Part shown: in pieces, positions 266 to 27,008 of the stretch
Layout: each line of letters starts with the position of its first letter
Position numbering within the stretch: the first letter of the stretch is position 1
Assembly (NCBI GenBank): GCA_018398765.1
Contig: JAHBMJ010000582.1
Coordinates: 17,590-44,598, forward strand
Source: Chromera velia
Taxonomy: Eukaryota; Sar; Chromeraceae
Reading direction: 5' to 3'
Length of the DNA stretch: 27,009 nucleotides
The notes under the pieces: model-generated
Databases searched by the model: none
What the model saw: only the letters and a program-made list of their open reading frames with translations
Told to the model about the DNA's origin: nothing
Program-made: the position numbers and the translations under genes

Positions 266-2606
266 CAGTCATGCCAAAGTCGTCAAAGAACTTCGCGGCA
301 GAGACAGACTCGAGACTTGAGGGAACAGGAGAGGAAGGCGCAGAAGCAGGACCCCAATTCCGCACCACCAAGTTCTCATCGGAAGAAGAAGCGGACTGCT
401 GTTGGAATTGGACGCCCTGCAGGGACGGACAAGGAAGGTGGGGCGGGGGGGGGAAGAAGATGAAAAAAACAGAAAAGCAAAGGTATTGAAAGGGGACTGC
501 ACAGAAGGAAGGTACGAGGAGACGAAGACGGAAGTGCAAGAGCCAAAGCTCTCTCTGTCGGCGACAAGCGGAAGATTCCTTCAGGCACTGACTGACTGCC
601 TGCCTGCCTGCCTGCTTGCCTGCCTGACTGACTGACTGACAGTTGGAGGCCTTCTGTTTGTTTCCCCCATGCCTCTCCGAGCCTGTGTCCATCCCGTCTC
701 TTCCCTGCCGTTTCTGTCCAGCCCACTCATTGAACACATTTTGAACCAAATCTCCTCCACCCAGGCGTGCAACCAGTAGAGAACGTCCGCCATCGTCACG
801 CAGCTTTCAAGAGCCTCTGGAGCAAACGAGACAGTCAGGGAGCCTCCGTTTGTTGCCCCTCCAGATGTTTCAGCAGAAGGACCTGCCCCCCCTCTCGCTT
901 GGCTCTGTGCCCCGTCTCCCTCTCCCTCTGCCTGGCTGGACCCGCCGCTCAAGCGGCTCACTCCTCGACGCGTAAATTCGCTGCAGGGAGAACTCAAAAC
1001 AAAAAAAGGGCCAGAGAGGAGAAGGGCAAAGGGGGACACTGGATGTGGAGGAAAGAAAATCGGATCTTCGTTCTCACATGTATGTCTTCCCCTCCCTCCC
1101 ATGCATTCATGCGGAGATATCCCCATGACACTCATTAAAGTCACGCAAAGAGATTGATCCCAAGGAATTCAGAGTTGACAAACCAGAAAATCATCCAACC
1201 AACCCCCCCACACTCCACCCGAACAACGGCCAGTAGGCTCTCCCTGCTCACTCACTCACCTAGGTGGAGGAGCTCCGTCGTCCTCGATGTCGTCCTCTTC
1301 TTCTTCCTCGTCTTCTCCTTCCCCCTTCCCTTGCCTGCCCTCTGCATCGACCGGAACTCCTGCTCCAATTTCAGCAGCAGCAGCAGCAGCAGCAGGCGGA
1401 GATGCGGGACGTGACGGCACTCCTGGTGGTGTCACTATCACCTTTCGGGGACGCCCATTTTCCAAATTCTCGTCCGGACGGTCCAGATCTTCGTCCTCTC
1501 TTCCTCGCTTCACTGTCGCTGTCTGGGGGGCCGACTGACTTACGGGGAGATCCTGGCTGGAGGACGCTTGGGGCATTTCTTCGTCTCTCTCTCCACTTGT
1601 GTCCACAACAAAGCGGATTTCCGTCTTCTCTTTTCTGCTTCCCATCTCCTGTTCAAGCGCCTTCTGAAATCTTTGGACCATCGAAGGGTCGATTGCAGCA
1701 GCAGCAGCAGGGCCGTTGGCAGCGTGGTGTGTTGGGATGGTCATGGGCACTCTGTGCTCTCTCGGGTCCTCCTCGTCAGACACATCCGACCCCGCCAGTA
1801 AAAGGTTCATGGTTTTCGCAGTCTCTGCTGCCTTGTCTAATTGGAACATGACTGAATGGAGCACCTGGTGAGTCAGATTCAGTGAGCCTCCTTCTCTGAC
1901 GGAGAGCCAAAGAGGGTCACGTCGCAGTGAGAAAAAGACGGGAGGGAACCGGAAGGACGAGAAAGACAGAAAAACGCGTCCATGCGCCCCAACCAAATTT
2001 AGGCAGAATTCTGATGCAGGAGAAAAAGAGTGGGGGGAACACAAAGCATGAGCGAGCGTCGCCACACACACAACACACACACGCGCGCGGGANGGGGGGG
2101 GGGGGCGAAGGAACTGCCTTTTTTGTATGCACACAAGTGCCATGCAGGGAAACCTAAAGCATGGACAATCAAGAAGAAAGCATCGGTGGCACGGAAAAGG
2201 CCAAAGAGTTCCTCACTGCCTGCCTACCTGCAGGAGTCCTCGAGGTTATGTGCCTCATCAATGATCACGATGCTGTCCTCGATTGGCACCTTCGCTCCCG
2301 CAGCCACTGAAGGATCCAGAACGTACTGATACGGACATACAATCAACTGAGCATCGTCCATCAGGACCTGCACGCAGAAAAGATCATTGATTGATCAGGT
2401 TCAAAAGGCGTCCACGCGTGCACTCATGCACACACATAGACGAGAGACAGGGCCAGAATCAGGCACCCGAGCAGACCAGAGAAGGGCAGGACGACAGTGT
2501 AGCCGGCTCCGGTGCAATGTCTGTGTCCAAGTCTGCATCTATGGCTGTAGACGCATGCCCACTCCTTGAAGTCTACTACTGCTACGATCACGATCCCCCC
2601 CCCCCC

Positions 2607-2641
<35 letters not shown>

Positions 2642-5600
2642 CGAGAGAGAGAGAGGAGACCGAAATGCATGGATATGCGCACACAGTAAACAGCACTCAG
2701 CCTGCCTTCATCTGCGACCCCCATGCAGACCGACGAACCCTTGATGTGTAATACGGACAGCAACCCGCCGCCTCCACCACCTCTGCTGCCGCCGCTGCCC
2801 TGTCACGTCTGGGCCTCGGCCGTCCCACAGAAAACGAAGACGATGAAGAAGAAGAAGAAGACGGGTCCTTGACAGGTCTCTTGCACACCTCCACTAACTC
2901 TTCCACGTCAAATAAGCCTGTGATAACTTCTTTATTCGAATGCGATTCCACATCACTATCTTCACCGTCAGATGGATCGTCCTGTTCTTCTGTGCTCCTT
3001 CCTTTAAACACATGACCGCCCCCTTCCTCCCCCTCTGTCTCCAGACTGAACAACGGACCCGACCGAGCCCAACCATCTGGACGGAGACGCCTCGCTATGC
3101 GCTGTGCAAACTTGGACCTCGCAAGATTCAAGTAGTAAGGACAGAACATCGGTCCCGCTTCACCCTCTCCCCCCCCATCTGCACCAGAAGCAGATGTGCC
3201 GGCAGAGCCTCGTGCCGTCCCCTGTGTCGAGCGCCTCACGGATATTCTGCAAGCACAACGTACGGACTTCACCTATCCCTGCCAAGTTGCATGCATATCA
3301 TGATGCAGTCAAGACGACACGACCCCTGCATGCGACACGCTAACGTGCAGAGAAGGGAGAAGCAGACAAGAGGGGCAACTACCGAAGGTACAAGAACCCA
3401 AAAGAACAGGTCAGATGCAGACACGAGGGCAGAGCAGACTTGCAACGGGTCTGTCTGGGCGTCCTCCAGTCCACAAAACTTTCAAATCGAGACCCACATA
3501 TCTAAACGAAAGCCCTTCTATGCGCTGTATAACTCCTCTAACATCCACATCGACACGTATGCACGGACACCCACACATCCATAAGCTAGATATAAATTCA
3601 TTAATTGTATCTACTCACCCTTCCACTTGTACATCGAACCCCGCGCCCCTTCCAGAGCCCCTAGACTTCTGTTGGCTCTTCACTATAGAGTCCGCCCCTT
3701 TGCAGAGCGCCCTGCACTTGTCTCGGAAGGCCCCGTCCTCCCCCTTCAACTTGAAAGCTGTGGAGGAACCTCCGTTGCTGCCTCCCCCGTTTGCCGTCTC
3801 TGCACTGTCCCCTTCACTCCCACCGTCTCCTCCCCTTCTGTTCCGCCCCCGTCGCCCCCCCTGACCTCCATTCCCCTCCCCCTCTCCCTCTATTTGGCTC
3901 TTGAACGGACACATGCGCAGTCGGGAACCCAACACAGTCATGCGAGGAGTGTACGCGGACCTCTTCGCCTCCTTGACTATTTGATCCACCTGCAGCAAGT
4001 CGTGAGGAGATAATCTTCGGATGCTTTTTTTTTGTCACTCCTTGGCGCACGTGATGAGGAGCAGGACAAGAATACTGCAGACGAGAAGACCCTCTCGCTG
4101 CTCTTAGCCACTTCGCTGAAACTTTTGAGCGAAGACACAAAGAAGAATCCGAAACATGTCTCTTCCCCCCTTTTTTGTGGACGCAAACGCCTAACTACAC
4201 AGCTATTCAAATGGACTGGGTCATACGAAAAGGTAGTGAAGGTATTCAAGAAGCTTTCTCTCTGAATTTGAATGCATCTCATCTGTCTGACCTGAGCGTG
4301 GGTTCTTGTCAGGTAGATCACTCGGGGAATGTTGACGCCTAATGGGCCCAGAGGCGCTGTGTCGGACAGAAACGTACCGCCACCCCCTGCTGCAGCAGCA
4401 GCAGGTGCTTGGGGGGGCGTTGCCTCCCTCTGCGTCTGTGAGTCTGTCGGAAGGCCTCCGAAGTCGTCCCCCTCCCCGGACTCTTGCCAGCCTGTTCCGT
4501 TTGGACGGGGAGGGCCTGCTGTTGGATGATGGGGTCCTTCTGCTGTCGCATCTTTCAGCTGCGTTACAGGCCCCTTAGGCACTCTGTCTCCCCCTCCTCC
4601 CCTTCCTTCCGGTCTGCCATGAAGTTGCATTCTCCGAAGCTGAAGAGCTCTGTGCCTCTGCCAGGCGAGAGACGCACAGAGCAGGGCAGCGGTCTTTCCC
4701 GTTCCTGCAGGCACACGTTCATCAGTCAGCCGGTCTCTCGCAGGCTCACGCACTCCCAGACTCGCTGAATTACTTGAGCAATCATTCAATCAATCTGTCA
4801 TTTGTTCATTACTTCAATTAAGCGTTCAATTGTTCATCACTTCAATCAACCATCAATCAATCAGTCATTTAATCATTTATTCATTGCCTCAATGAATCAA
4901 TTAATCAATCAATCATCAATGAAGACAGCAACAGATGTTTGAGATCCTGCCGCTTGATTCGCTGCCCGGTATCTCTGCAGTCCCGTTTACTCCAATAAAA
5001 GTCTTCGTCCTCCATGCAACGAATTGCCGTTTTGTCCCGCCTTCCTTTTTTAAATCTTTCGACATGATGCACTCCTCCGTCGCCAGGCCTCGTCCCCGAG
5101 GCCCGGCTAGCAGTACCTCCATTATTCTACCATCACATCCAGTACAGCCTCTGTTATGTGATGGGCCATCTGTTGTCTGTTGTGTTAATAGAGGCCGAAT
5201 GGTTCCTTTTCAATGTTGCATTCCCTTCTTCCATTTTCCCGGCTCTTTTCTTGTGTTGATTTACTCATTCACGCACTTTCAAATGTACTTGCTCACTCAA
5301 AACTCGATCGATCATTTTGGCCAACGTAGAAGGAAGCCCCCGATGACTTTGATGGAGGTGCATTTGGGGAGAGGGGGGGGCAGTAGCTGAAAGGCTTTAC
5401 TGACAAGGAAAAGCGAGCACGCGGGCAGGCACTCACCTGTTGGTGACTCGATCAGTGCGTGCCCCTCCCTCTTGTAGGCCTTGATGAGGGCGTTCATGAC
5501 CATTCTCTGTGGCCGCAGGGCATCGCTGTAGTGCCATTGGATCTCCACCCCTTGCAGAGGAATCACCTTCTGCGTCTTCTCGGACAGATTCTTGGAGTTC

Positions 5601-15329: not shown

Positions 15330-16581
15330 CAAGATGCGAGAAAGGAGGAATGATGGACGAAGAGAACGACGCACTCAGAAACAAGGGTCGGCATTCTTGC
15401 TAAAGTTATGCAGAAATATGTGCTTGACGTCTGACGGAAGTTTTGCGAGGTTTTGTTTTCTCTTCTTTCTAAGAGGACATTTATACGGTGAAATGCAGAA
15501 ACTGATTTTACAATGTGGCCGGTCTGATCGAATCTCATTGGGGAAGATAACTAGGGAAGATAGCTAGTAATAACTAGAGACATGGGTGGGGCAAACGCGG
15601 AGAGAGAGAAAAAGTGTGCGAACACAAATGGGAAGAGAAACACACGTACAGACAAATTTTTAATGTAAAGAGAGCTTCAAGAGCCGGTTTCACCTTCATT
15701 GTTTATGTCGAGCGATGATGTCAGACTCGGTGAATGCGTCGGTATGCATGAACAAGCGCCTCTGCGTCTGCCTGTGTGTATCCTTGACAATGTGAGTTTG
15801 TGGTATTTGTGTGTTTTTGTGTGCGTGTGTGTACGTACGTGCGTATATTGTGGCTGTCCTCATGCCCTCGAGACTTTTCAGCACCAAGTTTGTGGTCATG
15901 GAATCGAACTGGATGAGAAACAAACCAAACTGACCATTCAGATTCACCCTTGGCTTTCGCGCCCCGACATTGCTGTAGACGAGCTTGCGCAGTTCCACAA
16001 TGGAGGCAACGCCCCCAAATTTCTCCAGTCTTTTCTGCACAGAGTTTTCCCACACGAAAGAAAGAAGCAATGGAGGGACGTGAAATCAAGGAGGCTGGCA
16101 GGAAGTTCACAAACAGTCAGTCGGTCACTGAACTTCTCTGAAGGTTCCTCCTCAACTGCATGGAAACACAGACAGAGCAAGCACTCACGCCGAACGGAAG
16201 AAAGGGGGGGAAGCGGTTGAGATGAAGACAGAATGATCAAGGGGGAAGTGAAAAGACGAATCGCCAGGGTGAAGCAGGAGACTGAATCGAGCTATGAGAA
16301 CAGAAATTGACGCTCCGGAAAGACAAGCCAAAAAGGGAAGAAGAGCTGTCGAGGAAGAGAACGGAGAGAGAGGCGAACGAATCACATGTTCTATTGAAGA
16401 AAGGGTAAGGAGACACTTCAGAGAAGCACAGAAAGAGCATGGAAAAGAGAGAGGAGACCACCTCAACCGCCGACCTCAACCTGCATATGCCAGTAGTTGG
16501 CCCACTTCAACTTACCTTCTGCGCCGTCGAAATCGGATTCCCGTCTCTCAGCACTGTTCAGATTTGCGCTAGGATTTGCGA
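14656..16581 (-). CDS. Multi-exon gene of unknown function (5' and 3' ends unresolved)
   Basis: Exons on minus: 16581-16516 (ANPSANLNSAERRESDF, GTAAGT donor), 16155-16080 (VEEEPSEKFSDRLTVCELPA, acceptor TTTCCATGCAG; phase fits), 16029 or 16034 to 15839 (LEKFGGVASIVELRKLVYSN then NGQFGLFLIQFDSMTTNL, GTACGT donor), and 14788-14656 (REKWSKEKWLPKIESNAVPF then YEHLNKHVYDPLRWSTK, GTGCGT donor). The last exon is the most convincing. I do not recognise the family. One or more exons between 15838 and 14789 are needed to make phases agree; candidates include a short exon ending at about 15098 (LGPIK). Possible 3' exons near 14270-14130 include a stretch reading MREFDETCKELRHLTEDQRV. The plus strand is open opposite the third exon (15699-16220), so a reversed model there is not fully excluded. 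Confidence 0.5.
15277..15330 (+). repeat. (GA)n microsatellite
   Basis: AGAGAGAG units with a few AAAG interruptions, in the long gap between two exons of the unknown minus-strand gene. Confidence 0.95.
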
Positions 16582-19199: not shown

Positions 19200-19490
19200 A
19201 TGAGTGAATTTTTAAATGAATTTAGATGAATTTACGTGAATTTAAGCAGTGAATTTACATGAATTTAAGTGAATTTACAAATGAATTTCGAGACTAAATT
19301 CACTGTCATTAATTTTGAAATGAATTTAGAGTTTTTTACATAGAAATTAATTTAATAATGTAAATTCACTTAAATTCATTTCATATAGTGAATTCTAGAG
19401 TGAATTTAAAACTAAATTCATTAGTGAATTTATACTTAAAATTCACTTGTAAGTTGTAAATCCCTAAGTAAATTTACTTAACTTGAAAGT
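19200..19490. repeat. TGAATTTA/TAAATTCA inverted-repeat array
   Basis: About 290 bp of degenerate GTGAATTTA and ATGAATTTA units, first in one orientation then as TAAATTCAC. It contains a perfect 20-bp hairpin arm, ATGAATTTAAGTGAATTTAC at 19259-19278, whose reverse complement lies at 19360-19379. It may be a small MITE-like hairpin element. No target duplication was identified. Confidence 0.75.
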
Positions 19491-19724
19491 AAGGTCTTGT
19501 GTTAGGTCTTGTGTAACCTTTTAGAACCAATAGGATTAGGATTAGGATTAGGATTAATGTCCGGAGGATTGGCCTCCCGCCCCAATGCCAAATGTCCGAC
19601 GTGCGGCTTCCAGGGAAAGCGCCTAGACGTATCAGACCTCCCTGGCCGGCCCGCACAGGTCTAGCCTGTGCTGCAAACGGATCACATTGAACAGTCAATC
19701 ACCTGCGTGTGTATGCGAGAGGGC

Positions 19725-20170: not shown

Positions 20171-20173
20171 AAG
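20171..20173. repeat. Target site duplication AAG (left)
   Basis: Three bases immediately outside the left TIR, matching 24409-24411. A 3-bp match alone is weak; it is supported by the restored LINE reading frame. Confidence 0.65.
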
Positions 20174-20655
20174 CATCTATGAGGAATGACAAACTGAAAT
20201 ATCTGAGATATTTTAGGATATTTGGAGATATTTCTATCCCCCATTAAATATCTTTACATATCCCAAATATCTAAGATATTTTATGATAGTTCATATCTTC
20301 AAATATCTGACTGCATCAAATTATATGAAAGGAAGATATTTAAAGATATTTCTAGATATTTGTTTTAAAAAATATTTATCCTTATATAACTGATGCAATA
20401 GACTATGTAGTTAGAATACTAGCAAATATCTGCAAATATCCGCAAATATCTGGTAATATTTTATAATATGAAAAGATATTTAAAAGATATTTATAAATAT
20501 CTCAAATTATTTGTAAATATGTTGAGATATGAATGAATATCTCATAAAATATTGAAATATTTCATGATATATGAAACATATTCAGAAATATCTGGAAATA
20601 TCTTCGGATATTTACGGATATTTGAAAATATGTTGTGCAATATCTCCAAATATTT
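20174..20655 (+). repeat. Left terminal region: TIR plus AAATATC array
   Basis: Starts with the TIR, then about 450 bp of imperfect AAATATCT/AGATATTT units in both orientations, many palindromic. TTTCTATCCCCCATTA near 20231 is shared with the right terminal region near 24174. Repeated palindromic subterminal motifs are typical binding sites for transposases (family knowledge). Confidence 0.8.
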
Positions 20656-20765
20656 TACATGCGTGAACAAAAAAAAAGGAAAAAGTGAACAGTTGCACAC
20701 GTTTTTACTGCTATACTGCATAACAGCTTTTTTGACATAGGCTGCAATACACAACACTTGCGTTT

Positions 20766-22316
20766 TCATAGTTCTGGCTTGTATAGAGGCAGCCTATTAC
20801 TACTCAGAGGCCGCTCACTGGCAGACGGACTCGCAGCAAGTCTGAGACGCATGCTGCTTCGGCGGCCGCTATCAGTGGTAAAAGCAGGAGCTGCACAATC
20901 CTTCGCGCTGGTAGGTGGACTCCTATGCTTCATCCCATCACTGGTGTTCACTTTATGGGGCTTCAACTCTTTCTTTTTGCCACGTCCTGTTTTTGCCCCT
21001 TTAGGCGATTTGTCCCGAAGAAACACCGTTGTTGTGCCCCCTTTCGACTTCCGGCTTTGTACAATCGTTCGGACTGCAGGTTTCATGCCAGTCCCGGGGC
21101 CGGTGTTGCCTTCCCGACCCTTAAAACGCTTCTGGCGCTGCCCACTGGCAGTCAGCGATTCCGAGTCGTTTTTCTGTCTCTTTGCTCGAGACTTTGGTTG
21201 CTGCAATCATATGACTCGGATGCGGCAACACGGGAGGAAGAGAAAAAAAGAAGGAGAAGTGAACTTCCAGCAGAAAGAAGTAAAGATGGGAGGCAGAAAA
21301 GATGAAAAAAGTCAAAAATTGAGTGGGCAACACATGGTGACACTGTGGCACCCCGAGTGAAAGAAATTGGTTTGTGTAGCCAGCTGTAGAGATTGAGTGG
21401 GACTGAGTGAGTGTAGGGCCGTGAAATGACCATGAGAGGAATGAGAAGGGCCTAAGGACAGTCAGCAGGGAAATGGGACAAGGAAGAAACAGGAAGGTGA
21501 CATGGACTGATTCAGGCGATAGTCGGTAAAAGCTGCCCTTTGTGTCTGTAATCCATCTGTAACTGTCAGAAAAGAAGATTGAAGAAGAAGCTGGAGAAAA
21601 GTAACTGGAGACGGTATACAAAAAGATACATACCAAACCATGCTGACCTCTGGAACGAGTTTTTTCAGGTCCTCGCCAAACTTGAAGAACAGAAGCTGTT
21701 TCAGCCTCCGTTGAAACTCAAAGTCCTCGACTACACGAAAAAAAGGGCCTGATTCCATCCAATTGTTGGCATCGATGCGGTCGTTCCGTCTCGAAGTCCT
21801 TTCGTCGTGCAGGTCATCTTCTGTGAAGTCAGAAGGATCATCATCGCGAAACACATAGAGACAAAAAGAGTCTTTAAGCTTTCGGATCCCCTTTCCCAAA
21901 AAAAGAGCCAACAAGCAGTCCTTTGCTCTGCACTCCTCTTCGTCTTTGGACTCGCTCCACTCTGGTTTCGTGAACCAATGTTGTTTTTCAAAGTTCCGGA
22001 TGACTTTTTCGGTTGTCATCCCTGCATCGAAGTGTGCCCCCTTCAATTGTAGCATAAACATAGACCCATTGGTATATGTCAAGTACACTTTATCTGAGCG
22101 GGTGAGGGACTTCAAAATTTTTGAAACGATCTCGTTGCTCTTTTGCCCTTTCCAAACAAGGAAATAATCTGCTGGCAGAACAACACCCTCTTCTGGAAAA
22201 GCCTTGAAAATCTCGTCCCTTGCCTGTCTCAAGGAGAGGTTGCGATCGTCAATAACCATTCGAAGGTCCTCCAAGAGGTCCAAAGCATCCTTTCTGTAGA
22301 TCGCGTTCAATGACAT
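20766..22316 (-). CDS. Element gene A: unknown protein with basic C-terminal tail, 3 exons
   Basis: Exon 1 runs from ATG 22316 to 21634 (227 codons plus 2 nt) with a GTATGT donor. It starts MSLNAIYRKDALDLLEDLR and holds GVVLPADYFLVWKGQKSNEI, YLTYTNGSMFMLQLKGAHFD, LALFLGKGIRKLKDSFCLYV and FFRVVEDFEFQRRLKQLLFF, a folded-looking alpha/beta protein with a DDDPSDFTEDD acidic loop. A short exon 21562-21508 (YRWITDTKGSFYRLSPES) fits the phase. Exon 3, 21200-20766, is a Lys/Arg/Ser-rich tail beginning QPKSRAKRQKND and ending LYKPEL. The exon 2 donor (GTCCAT) is weak. I recognise no domain. The position inside the TIR element and the divergent partner suggest an element-encoded function, such as a DNA-binding accessory protein; that is inference. 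Confidence 0.55.
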
Positions 22317-22478
22317 TGCAGCGAGACGGGAAGAAGAACGGTCATGAGAAGAAAAAAATGTACTGTATCCAACTTTCCACAAACAAGACTTCCTTGATTT
22401 TAGGCACACAGTTTTGCGGCTTCACTTCGGTTGCTTGAGATTGCAGTATATATCTCCCTCAAGTGTAGACTCGCAAAT

Positions 22479-22482
<4 letters not shown>

Positions 22483-22511
<29 letters not shown>
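22483..22511 (+). repeat. (GA)n microsatellite between the two element genes
   Basis: About 14 GA units in the 665-bp divergent intergenic region (22317-22981) of the nested element. An open plus frame at 22414-22683, including DYTKYSQRSIDSRLQLRG, spans it but has no support as a gene. This region should hold the promoters of both element genes. Confidence 0.95.
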
Positions 22512-22514
<3 letters not shown>

Positions 22515-22981
22515 CATGGTCACATCTGTTGACGATTACACAAAATATTCACAACGATCGATCGACTCACGACTGCAGCTGCGCGGTCGGCCCGCGACCG
22601 CAAAAAAAGCTATAGCTAGGGCCGCGCTGGCCGGCATGCATGCATACTGCATGGGCTGTTATGCAGGGAGATGCGGCTTGTAGGCAGAATTTGAAGGGCA
22701 AAAGAAAGAAAGATCGATAGTGCTTGGGACAACGACTCCCGGAGGACTGAAGTCAAACGACGAGCACGTCTCTTCAACTCTCTTGGATCCTCCGTCTCTT
22801 ATGCACAATCGATCTGTGCAACAAATGAATTGTTCACTCTTCATCTAGCATCTCTTTCATCTTCAGTCTTCACTCTTTATCCGCTTTGCTTGGAGGAGTC
22901 CGACCTGTTTCAAACACGTTCAAACTTGAGGGGCTGATTCACGACGATTCGCGGCCTGTGGATCTTGTGCCCTCTCATACA

Positions 22982-23941
22982 ATGCGCCCCCCATCCAAAG
23001 GGGGACTTCCACCGCGGTTGAGTCGTGCGGCACTTCGTCTCCTCACAGAGCTTACAGAGCTCATAGGTTCCAAGAATGAGACTCTGGCGAGCCTGGACCG
23101 ATACTTCGATTTTTCTCTTTCAATGCGTGTGTCAGAGGGAGAGATGGTTGAGGGACTTTTTGCATTTGAGCAAGAGAGGAAAAGAATCCTTACAGCCGCA
23201 AAGAAATTGCAGGAGCAACGGTTCCCTTTTGTTTAACCGTATGGTCAATCAGATTGTGTAGAAGTGGCTTTAAAAACTAGAGTTACCGAAATAGAAGGGG
23301 ACGCCTTTCGGGATGCTCTCATTGAGCACATATTCGGGCAAACTGGGTGGAAAGGAAATGTGGAGAGCATCAAATGGTTGATTGGTAACCATGTTCTGGA
23401 GATGAAGTTCGTTCTTTATCGGACAAAGGTCTTAAGGGATGTTAGGCAGTTCCGACGGATGATTGTTGAGGATGACCTTGTTCTTCATGCAGACAGGTCA
23501 GAGGAATGCTCCATTAAATCCTTTGAAAGGATGCTAATCCGGGGCGTTCCATACCAGGACACAGCTCGGCTTCAGTATGATGAGCACGATTATATCCCTT
23601 CACGCCGGCGTGAGCAAAACGATGAAAGGGATCGGGGCCTATGTGTTAGAGTGGGGTTTGCAAAGATCCTTTTTTTCTTTCAAATTGAGAAAAAAACGGT
23701 GCCGTCTTCCCTGCGTGGCGTTCTTGAAGGCGTGCAATTTATATTTTATCAAGCATATGAAGGACTTGAGGTGCTCCCTTCATACTGCCATCTTTTATAT
23801 GCCCTCTATCGACAGAAAGTGAAAAAATATTTTATTGCCCATGTAAACAAAGTGATCGATCGTGTTCTTACTCTTCCTGATCGCCGCTCAACAACCGACG
23901 ATCCGCTATACGTATGGATCTGCCCGTATTTACGACATTAA
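22982..23941 (+). pseudogene. Element gene B: unknown protein, one ORF broken by a single TAA
   Basis: ATG 22982 (MRPPSKGGLPPRLSRAALRL) opens 84 codons to TAA at 23234-23236, and the same frame then continues 235 codons to the stop at 23939-23941. The first part is helical (LDRYFDFSLSMRVSEGEMVE). The second holds VTEIEGDAFRDALIEHIFGQ, RRMIVEDDLVLHADRSEECS, VRVGFAKILFFFQIEKK and VNKVIDRVLTLPD, ending YVWICPYLRH. No canonical intron spans the TAA (the shortest GT-AG choice would be about 31 nt), so I read it as a nonsense mutation. The end, a beta-rich FAKILFFFQI segment, then VNKVIDRVLTLP and a hydrophobic end, resembles the C-terminal regions of some EnSpm-like transposases; this is a weak impression. 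The open frame extends upstream to 22886 without an ATG. Confidence 0.5.
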
Positions 23942-24117
23942 ACATATTCAAACTTGAGAGTACTCCTACAACTTTCAACTTGAAGTAATACCCAACTTTA
24001 ACCTTAAATGAACTTTAAAACTTTTAATTTTGATTTCTGAACTTTAGAATTGCCAGTGCCAGTGAACACTGAGAGTTTGAGCTTCAAGTTTGACTTACCG
24101 ATCACATTCTTTTTCAA
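23942..24117. other. AT-rich flank inside the element, no gene
   Basis: Repeats of ACTTTAAA and AACTTTTAATT resemble the AT-rich words at 8940-9130. No coding frame. Confidence 0.5.
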
Positions 24118-24408
24118 TATCTATAAGGAATGACAAACTAAAATATCTAAGATATTTGACGATATTTGCAATTATTTCTATCCCCCATTATTTCTAAGTC
24201 TGAGTTACACATAAGATAATGAAAGATAATGATAATGATAATTAAATTATTTGAAATAATTATTTGGTGAAATATCATCAAATATCTTAAAATATCTTGA
24301 AATATCACAAATATCCCTAAATATCTTCAAATATCTGAATATTTGGATATTTCATAATCAAATATCTTGGATATACGGATATTTTAGTTTGTCATTCCTC
24401 ATAGATGA
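24118..24408. repeat. Right terminal region with an extra copy of the left end
   Basis: Ends with the right TIR at 24408. At 24118 it also begins with a diverged TIR in left-end orientation (TATCTATAAGGAATGACAAA) followed by TTTCTATCCCCCATTA, as at the left end. The 291-bp segment thus looks like a complete short TIR element by itself. No matching 3-bp duplication flanks it (CAA versus AAG), so it is more likely an internal duplication than a separate insertion. Confidence 0.7.
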
Positions 24409-24411
24409 AGC
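24409..24411. repeat. Target site duplication AAG (right)
   Basis: Three bases immediately outside the right TIR, matching 20171-20173. Confidence 0.65.
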
Positions 24412-24412
24412 T

Positions 24413-27008
24413 TACAAGCAGTCTGCCCTCTCTCCATCATGTAGAGGGCATTCAGTCAGCACATGGATTTGATTTTCGACTGCTTGAATGTTAAGCAGGT
24501 CAAAGCAAACCATGCATTTCCTTTCTATCAATGGGGTCCCTCTGCCTCCTTCTGTTGAGAACTTCTCCCTGTTTACCTAGCTCCAAGTTTCTCTCTCCCA
24601 TCCAAAATACAGCCCTTCTTCTGTGGACAGGCCAGGAAGCTATCTTTATATAGCAGATGGGAGTTCTCCCTATCTTATCTCTATCTAATAAAATGCTTCT
24701 GTCTGTATCTTCTCCATTCTTGCTGTTGTGCAGCCACAGATTTAGGCGATTTCCGTTGGATAGAGACGCATAGATAGGATGCATGACGCCTTCTCTCAGC
24801 TCTTCCCTCTCGGCCCTTCCTCTTTTCTGCACTGACCTCTTAACTCTCTCTGTAAATGCTTCCTTTTTCCTCTTTATAATTTCTTCCTTTTTCAGTGCTT
24901 CTATCCACCTTACTATTCTGTCTCTTCTCTCAAAGGAAGGTTGTCTGCCTGCAGCTTCTGGTTCTCTTCCTATCTGGAAGGGATGGCTTCTTGTCTCTGT
25001 GAAAAGTGTTTCGACACATTTCTACAAGTGGGGGAAAAAGTGAAAGGGGTGAAGCTTCCTTCCTCTAAGTTCTGAATCGACTCCTTCCTGTAATGATTGA
25101 ATGAGTGCATGGCCTGTCGGTGTGTCTTTTCCTTTTTGGATTACCTTCCTCGTCCACATCAGGGTTCTCTGTGCAACCACCAGATCGATAGGAAGAAGGC
25201 CTGCCTCAAGGAAAGTGGTGAGTATGCTTTCTTTCTCTCTTAGTTACAGCACCCATCAAATAAATCTTCTTTGCAGTTTGTTAAACTTTGCAAACGCTTC
25301 CTGCGAGTGTGAATGTACTTCACAGCCATATAACCAAATTGTACACACTGTCTGCCTGAACCATTGAAAATAAGTTGCAGGTGGGATCTCTCCTCCTGCA
25401 CTGATCTTACTTTTCAACATAAAAAAGAGTCTTTCTGCCTTAATCAATCTCTCTCTCATCATTGCATCTGTGGAGCAATCTTCTGTTAAAAGAAGGCCAA
25501 GGTACGGATATTCGCTTGTCTGAACTAACTCTGCCCCACCCAATGTGAATCGCTTTCTTCTCTCCCCCGCTTTCTGTCCAAACTTCATTATTCTTGACTT
25601 ATCTGATAGAAGGAGCTTCAAAGGCCTCGCATACTCCTCCAGTGCCTTCAGAAGCCTCTCCATCTCCTCTGCCTCTATCGATTGAAGGTATGTGTTGTCA
25701 GCAAAAAGCCCGACAGAGAAGTTCTCTTGTGCATCCTCGGGTCCTTTCTGGAGCTTGGGACCCCTCCCGGTGAGGCCTGCCCTCCTCCCAATATCTGCTG
25801 GCATGTCATTTGTATATCCTTTAAATAGAGAAGGTCCTACCGGACCTCCCTGCTTTGACTCTTTTTCTTCCTGAAACCAGAAATCACTCCCCTTCACCCT
25901 TGCTCTAATATTTCGTAGCGACTCACATACCTACTTAATGGTCTCTTCCCGCAACCCGTGCTTTCTCAACTGTCCAGGCATTCTACTGTGAGATGCTTCA
26001 TCAAATGCACTTATGAAATCAATAAAAGAAACAAAAAGAATCTTAAGACGAGCGATCGATTGAAGCAAAAGAAAAATTGCATTCAAGGTTCCCACCCCTT
26101 TACTGTAGGCGAACTGCACATGGGTCCGTTTCTCCCTTCCCTCTGTCTCTACCACATCCCTCACGTACAACTCCCCCCATTTTGCATCGGCTGAGTCTAA
26201 GTGAATTGGTCTCCATCCTTTTTGAATGTTCTGCGGCTTCCCTGGTTTAGCAAGTGTGGAGATCACGAGATCATTCCATCTAGACGGCTACCATATGAAA
26301 CGAGCACATACATTTATCAATGCATAGTAACACTCGACCACTGTTGCCGACTTTGTTATTGCACCATGCACACCCGGAGGCATGCCATCTTTCCCTGCCG
26401 CTTTTTTGGGGTTTCCGTTCTTTTTTAATCCTTCATGCACCTTCTTTATATCTATCCTCCATTCTTTTGCTTCTGTCAGTGCTTCGAAGATACGTGAGAC
26501 GGTTTCCATAATTTCTTCTTCTGCGTCTTCGTTTTCATCTTTCTTCCACTGTTTTTCCCATCCTCTTACTATTTTTTCTTCAGTCAGCGTATCTTCCTTT
26601 CTTACCTCTTTCTTTTTGCTCAGCTGGTTCCATACCTTCCATTCTCCTCCTTTCTCTACCAGCTGACTTGTGATTCTTTCTATTCTTTTGAATCTCTGCC
26701 TTGCCTCCTCTCTTTTTATCGTTCTTCTTCTCTCCCTGCTTGCTGAGTGCAAAGCTTCTTTTGCTTCTTTCAATTCTCTTTCTACTGATTCTGTCTTTTC
26801 TTCGTCGAGTTTTTTTTTTGTCTCTCTGACTTTTTTTCCTGCCTGTGATTCGATCTTTTTCACTTGTTTGATTCTCCTCCTGATTATGATCTCTGGTGTG
26901 TCGTCCTCTCTAACGTTTGCCCCTCTTCTGTATTTCTTTTCTTTCTTGCACGCTTTCTTGTATTCCTCCTTTACTGCTTTTTTCAGCTTCCTGTATGGTC
27001 TATCTAGT
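24413..27008 (-). pseudogene. LINE reverse transcriptase polyprotein, inactivated
   Basis: One frame from the window edge to about 24500 with stops only at TAG 26290, TAG 25933, TGA 25258, TAA 25246 and TAG 25024, then a frameshift before 24500. Order: charged helical region (KKLDEEKTESVERELKEAKE), GKDGMPPGVHGAI, STLAKPGKPQNIQKGWRPIH (RT motif 2 region), FIDFISAFDEASHSRM (motif A with D and FD), GGPVGPSLFKGYTNDM (motif B-like), GLFADNTYLQS (motif C), then YPYLGLLLTED. Motif C should read YADD/FADD; the second Asp is Asn here (codon AAC), so the enzyme would be inactive even without the stops. After the frameshift, CFDLLNIQAVENQIHVLTEC keeps the H-x4-C half of the C-terminal zinc knuckle; the second Cys of its first half appears lost. 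Confidence 0.85.

Follow-up and report, generated by a model that had tools for sequence, protein, structure and literature searches.

A 27,009-nucleotide stretch of the Chromera velia genome (contig JAHBMJ010000582.1, positions 17,590 to 44,598 of the forward strand, or C581:17590-44598 of the 177.8 Mb assembly of 4040 contigs; hereafter, the window) contains a DNA transposon with terminal inverted repeats (TIRs), which is inserted in a long interspersed nuclear element (LINE). This is shown by LINE copies in which the insertion site is empty, by the many copies elsewhere that have its ends but unrelated neighbouring sequence, and by duplications of the target site. The element is best explained as a defective copy of a cut-and-paste TIR family, the transposase of which is probably of the CMCT kind and most like that of PlavakaB.

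The first-pass annotation had placed the element at 20174..24408, between 31-bp inverted ends with two mismatches and flanked by AAG. The repeats (which are mismatched at positions 23 and 31 only), the flanks, and the left boundary all stood, whereas the right boundary had to be moved to 24407: AAG occupies 24408-24410 and CTTA follows from 24411, so both 24408 and 24412, the position from which the LINE had been rejoined, were one base high. The host is recognizable from two neighbouring minus-strand matches to the reverse transcriptase family RVT_1, which lie at 25256-26287 and align to consecutive portions of the profile; their E values are 1.5e-6 and 0.0022, and their scores, 28.5 and 18.2 bits, are below the curated cut-off of 29.6. 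The proposed check for an empty LINE copy was made by searching the genome with a 203-bp query composed of both LINE flanks and a single AAG. Forty of the 77 candidate places were scored, and all 40 matched across the join with 90-96% identity, 34 of them over all 203 bases; the insertion site reads CAAAG in 11 of the 12 empty copies that were read and CAAAC in the other. On the minus strand, the LINE frame runs across the join without a shift (...LTECPLHDGERADCL / ALMTRWSSVKG...), as had been claimed, but the claim had passed over a TAA codon that lies in frame right at the join. This TAA is a variant of the LINE, because four of the 12 empty copies carry it too; the codon at the insertion point (join 20173/24411) is thus polymorphic for CAA and TAA, with the stop present in the window and in L058, L064, L065, and L068. 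The genome comparisons revealed neither of the observations that the annotation had set against its own claim, namely, LINE copies that hold this 4.2 kb at the corresponding position and homology running through 20174 or 24407.

The same ends recur in the genome. A 29-bp end pattern, allowing for up to three mismatches, was found at 65 sites (30 forward and 35 reverse) on 41 contigs, and the same pattern read backwards was found at none, which bears out the expectation of further copies with these ends; the family amounts to about forty copies. Forty regions on 39 of these contigs were fetched (C1928 and C2763 were left out), and duplications were counted in 21 copies, that is, the window and the 20 regions with two usable outer ends (L032 has a worn left end), leaving aside single-ended loci and the five nested pairs of ends that are described below (in the window, C3895, C1107, C3563, and C2596). 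The 20 other copies range from 294 to 5055 bp, with 11 of them between 2952 and 3398 bp. The flanking 2 bp are identical in 14 of the 21 copies (GT, TA, CG, TG, TT, and AG) versus 1.9 expected from swapped flanks; the flanking 3 bp are identical in one (the window, with AAG) versus 0.2 expected; and six copies show neither agreement. The rule is therefore a 2-bp duplication of varied sequence, and, of the 3-bp duplications that had been foreseen, only that of the window was found, where the duplication is either 3 bp or AG plus one extra A. Among the 42 outer flanks of these copies (at most 300 bp each), there is a single similarity between copies, over 36 bp; homology is thus bounded by the ends. 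What the 11 copies of about 3 kb have in common with the window, counting stretches of at least 100 bp, is confined to some 360 bp at the left end (80-86%) and 214 bp at the right (85-95%). Repeated ends in unrelated places, short duplications, and an empty site (the last for the window insertion only), together with relatives carrying deletions and with miniature inverted-repeat transposable elements (MITEs), show that this is a cut-and-paste family. When the open reading frames (ORFs) of part of the copies (13 loci in one round) were read by eye, the frames were repetitive and no transposase was seen, and a Pfam scan of two ORFs on C2152 gave nothing over the cut-off. An ORF at L050:6396-7136 has, near its end, CFPGRALVTSEKHGAIPISEL, which we take to resemble the start of a Hint (hedgehog/intein-like) domain.

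Comparison with its relatives indicates that the window copy is an internally deleted derivative and not a whole transposon, since C479 and C1568 continue at the break and other copies share only the part to the right of it. C479 and C1568, the latter in two pieces, match element positions 1-2926 (window 23099) with 93% identity and then carry sequence absent from the window, including an open frame of about 500 codons; C3895 is made up of element positions 1-105, 26 other bases, and positions 2925-4235; and C1107 and C2596 hold the right part only. Moreover, C1002, a distant relative of gene 2 (see below), has LNALLTCITRRYF at the position where C3895 has INRLLGVITRRYF. It would appear from this comparison that C3895 keeps old coding sequence in its 26 bases and that GGACC/GATAC in the window is a deletion joint, with CC common to both sides.

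The frame beyond the break in C479 and C1568 is related to ORFs on C3527 (E = 9.1e-7) and C1641 (E = 8.5e-5), the latter of which passes the cut-off for PF02902, Peptidase_C48 (7.6e-5). The alignment of the four brings H, D, Q, and C into register, the HW, DP, Q, and CG columns being invariant, so that, through its relation to the C1641 ORF, the frame may be classed as Ulp1/C48-like. A direct Pfam scan of the C479 and C1568 ORFs gave no C48 match, nor did that of the C3527 ORF, and sequence searches of the PDB yielded a single chance-level match for the ORF (E = 1.8) and none for the four-row alignment. The ORFs on C3527 (L056) and C1641 (L057) lie amid dinucleotide repeats and may mark other transposon families. 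At L013:292 (C479) and L025:871 (C1568), both near the starts of their contigs, the two copies are 96% alike as far as an acceptor-like TTTTTTAG/TTTTTCAG and wholly different past it, and the C479 sequence beyond this AG boundary occurs nowhere else in the genome. A true second terminus shared by the two copies at this AG, 292 and 871 bases from the respective contig starts, was considered but not adopted.

Gene 1 lies on the minus strand (22316-20766), consists of two predicted exons encoding 370 residues, and is open in the window copy. It was found in only three element copies (the window, C479, and C1568), the exons of which align without gap columns; exon 2 of C479 contains a TAG. The ratio of nonsynonymous to synonymous substitution rates (dN/dS) between the window and C479 is 0.34 for either exon, and between the window and C1568 it is 0.43 for exon 1 and 0.42 for exon 2. 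This bias towards silent sites argues that gene 1 was probably once kept by selection. The 3' part of gene 2 was found at strong score only in element copies. Of the pieces examined for this gene, the third, L043, is a broken copy. There are 12 further weak matches (E = 0.018-7.9), which fall in query positions 2-58 and about 186-267 or span both, and nine of which lie in frames of 398-758 residues (on C96, C3935, C1659, C312, C1355, C3877, C1739, C2981, and C1002), those of C96, C3935, and C1659 having 624-758 residues. The one weak relative that was read, C1002, agrees with the C3895 frame at 43% over 65 residues (E = 2e-9, for a single comparison); the left part of this alignment runs into an AT-rich end and is probably spurious. 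These weak relatives may be transposase genes of sister families. The last 100 residues of gene 2 and the GPP..TE.FE..HK of C1002 may resemble the C-termini of Plavaka and EnSpm proteins.

The subterminal arrays that had been described are real: AAATATC/GATATTT occurs 21 times in the left 500 bp of the element and 13 times in its right 290 bp, versus 0.38 and 0.19 times in mononucleotide shuffles, and not at all at element positions 501-3900. The element is, however, not whole: its interior is deleted, and its right 290 bp (24118-24407) are a complete nested MITE, the own left TIR of which has two mismatches in 22 bp. Solo relatives of this MITE lie on C1423 (306 bp, with a TA duplication) and on C2965 (294 bp, without a duplication). 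The joint ...CACATTCTTTTTCAA/MITE is identical in the window, C3895, C3563, C1107, and C2596, and the sequence past the right end differs in all five, which argues that the combined unit has moved. Among these five, only the window and C3895 have the outer left end; C2596 lacks it, and in C1107 and C3563 the contig ends first. In the simplest reading, a MITE inserted within a parent element, or next to the right end of one, and the right TIR of the MITE came to terminate a new unit, which then moved. An alternative is the reverse order of events, in which the nested unit was released to give the solo MITEs. The production of solo MITEs by recombination of two left-end repeats was also considered; the internal and solo MITEs (C1423 and C2965) carry AATTATTTC and the seven outer left ends compared carry AGATATTTC, which fits a separate MITE lineage instead. 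These sequences are like other MITEs in that they are non-coding, measure 290-307 bp, and share the TIRs of the element, one solo copy having a target duplication; the difference is that, here, a MITE serves as the right end of a 4.2-kb coding element.

To what group, then, does the family belong? According to Kojima (2025, PMC12730594), the termini of CMCT elements are mostly CA..TG and their target duplications are of 2-5 bp, and PlavakaB of fungi has the termini CATCA..TGATG and duplications of 2 or 3 bp. The paired termini here follow the pattern CATCTATGAGGAATGACAAACT, with 5'-CA..TG-3' ends and duplications that fall within the CMCT range; CATCT..AGATG agrees with PlavakaB in four of five terminal bases and in the mixture of 2- and 3-bp duplications. 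Differences from PlavakaB are the host, the Ulp1-like ORF carried by two relatives here, and the TET/JBP gene, of which none was noticed here without a search by name. The host is a photosynthetic eukaryote rather than a fungus, given that its genome has 58 matches to the light-harvesting family PF00504; when two of the light-harvesting proteins were compared with the PDB, LHCI chains of 9vfj ranked first, and the entries below them included fucoxanthin and peridinin chlorophyll a/c chains.

The family also has features of EnSpm/CACTA elements. PMC2613891 describes subterminal arrays in CACTA elements, which in Spm/En are bound by TnpA, a 3-bp duplication for Tgmt*, and copies with internal deletions; the window copy likewise has arrays of a short motif in both orientations inside its ends. 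ULP1-like regions are on record in CACTA and MULE families, including some grapevine families (PMC2528002). The ends here, CATCTATGAGG (CATCT), are, however, not CACTA, the duplication is mostly of 2 bp, and there is no match to Transposase_21, the controls for that search being silent. The anatomy would appear to work like that of a CMCT element, nearest to PlavakaB. As for the suggestion that this is an undescribed DNA transposon family, a literature search, outside which Repbase and Dfam lay, found no description of it, and the family is likely to be new to science; given the resemblance of its ends to those of PlavakaB, the claim of novelty extends to the family and not to the superfamily.

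Several observations weigh against the favoured explanation. The Plavaka profile PF18759 had no match in the genome at E 10 and found nothing over the cut-off in the control genomes; the CACTA profile PF02992 (Transposase_21) had no match in the genome and none in any control genome. No transposase core (DDE with C(2)C and H(3-4)H) was recognized in the copies that were fetched, none of which covers the whole of gene 2, and no full-length copy of the family was found in the assembly. Membership in CMCT or PlavakaB is unproven because no core was recognized and because both profiles came back empty with weak or silent controls. Pfam gave nothing usable for genes 1 and 2, in agreement with the earlier statement that neither has a nameable domain, and nothing for the C1002 piece, for which a PDB sequence search was also empty; a fold model of the 3' part of gene 2 was useless (mean predicted local distance difference test score, pLDDT, of 32). 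The substitution ratio is near neutral for the 3' part of gene 2 (0.86, window vs C3895), indicates weak constraint for the Ulp1-like frame (0.61, C479 vs C1568), and is 0.70 for exon 1 of gene 1 between C479 and C1568, on 11 changes. Seven of the 21 two-ended copies, among which are the window and C3895, are without a 2-bp duplication; apart from the window, C3895 is the sole copy seen in which the MITE joint lies between two outer ends, and it has no matching duplication. Finally, the Ulp1-like part and the 3' part of gene 2 never occur together on one contig, so we infer the gene order of the parent.

The best-surviving competitor to a CMCT transposase is that of another or new superfamily, with an unrelated transposase and a coincidental resemblance in CATC..GATG ends and 2-3-bp duplications. 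The silence of PF02992 and PF18759, the lack of a recognized domain in genes 1 and 2, and the absence of C48, transposase, or other notable domains from the element ORFs that were scanned are what such a superfamily would predict; the agreement with PlavakaB in terminal bases and duplications and the occurrence of Ulp1-like regions in CACTA and MULE families speak against it, and it is judged unlikely. Less probable still is a Pack-type composite, in which the left end of a transposon and the right end of a MITE enclose captured host DNA with two divergent host genes. This would account for a right end that is a complete MITE and for a divergent pair of genes without transposon domains, one of which has a putative intron; however, gene 1 and, at strong score, the 3' part of gene 2 are confined to element copies, the distant relatives of gene 2 are multicopy, and no host original is present in the assembly, which may be incomplete. 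That the 4.2 kb belongs to the LINE itself is already refuted by the scored LINE copies, all of which lack it at the join, and by the identical ends in unrelated surroundings.

A mechanism can be proposed for the favoured explanation. Cleavage at the CATCT..AGATG ends, together with staggered cuts of 2-3 bp at the target, would be the work of a CMCT transposase (the group of EnSpm/CACTA, Mirage, Chapaev, Transib, and Plavaka), most like that of PlavakaB. The palindromic AAATATC arrays would be coated by a binding protein that the element encodes, perhaps the basic protein of gene 1, much as Spm is by TnpA. In the parent, gene 2 would have encoded a large protein, possibly the transposase, beside an Ulp1-like protease. 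The window copy would have lost the middle of gene 2, the junction showing a microhomology of 2 bp (CC), and would depend on a transposase acting in trans. A related 290-bp MITE would have provided its right end, after which the two would have moved as one unit. It is possible, on a more tentative view, that the family is an undescribed algal lineage beside Plavaka and EnSpm within CMCT, with an Ulp1-like protease, a basic array-binding partner, and a right terminus renewed by taking over one of its own MITEs, such that the derivative rather than the parent now sets the end of the element.

The features of the element are collected in the table below. Elsewhere in the window, an ORF at 15669-16217 (plus strand) has a weak match to DUF1400 (alpha/beta hydrolase; E = 0.0007, under the cut-off), and short tandem arrays, (TAGGAT)n and TTTAAATGAA, lie below the LINE at 19531-19556 and 19211-19288, possibly near its 3' tail.

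Table. Features of the inserted element and its host LINE (window coordinates)
Feature	Position	Strand	Basis or remark
Whole inserted element, 4234 bp	20174..24407	.	TIRs, AAG flanks, empty LINE sites
Target-site duplication, left AAG	20171..20173	.	flank comparison with empty sites
Left TIR, CATCTATGAGGAATGACAAACTGAAATATCT	20174..20204	+	inverted-repeat comparison; 65 sites genome-wide
Left subterminal array, 10 AAATATC and 11 GATATTT	20174..20673	.	motif count
Gene 1 exon 2, 144 residues and stop, Lys/Arg-rich	20766..21200	-	
Gene 1 putative GT-AG intron	21201..21638	-	position inferred from frames
Gene 1 exon 1, 226 residues, MSLNAI...EVSM	21639..22316	-	reading frame; silent-site bias
Gene 2 putative 5' part (MRPPSKGG...), in frame over the deletion junction	22982..23233	+	TAA at 23234-23236 absent in C3895
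Putative internal deletion junction	23096..23100	.	C479 and C1568 continue into the Ulp1-like ORF; C3895 differs just upstream
Gene 2 putative 3' part, 234 residues	23237..23941	+	C-terminal region common to C3895, C1107, and C2596; weak matches at 12 more places
Right end, a complete MITE of 290 bp that includes a left TIR	24118..24407	.	second pair of ends; solo relatives on C1423 and C2965
Right TIR, 2 mismatches in 31 versus left	24377..24407	-	inverted-repeat comparison
Target-site duplication, right AAG (or extra A and AG)	24408..24410	.	
Host LINE interrupted by the element	24500..26287, continuing below 20173	-	RVT_1 matches, empty-site copies

If the CMCT/PlavakaB assignment is true, a transposon lineage known from fungi would be represented by a relative in a photosynthetic eukaryote far removed from them, with a bearing on the age of the lineage or on its sideways transfer. 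The presence in one genome of fragments of the parent, 3-kb deletion copies, and MITEs, along with empty sites for the window insertion, makes the decay of a large element traceable, as well as the way in which a MITE can take over as the functional end of a larger one.

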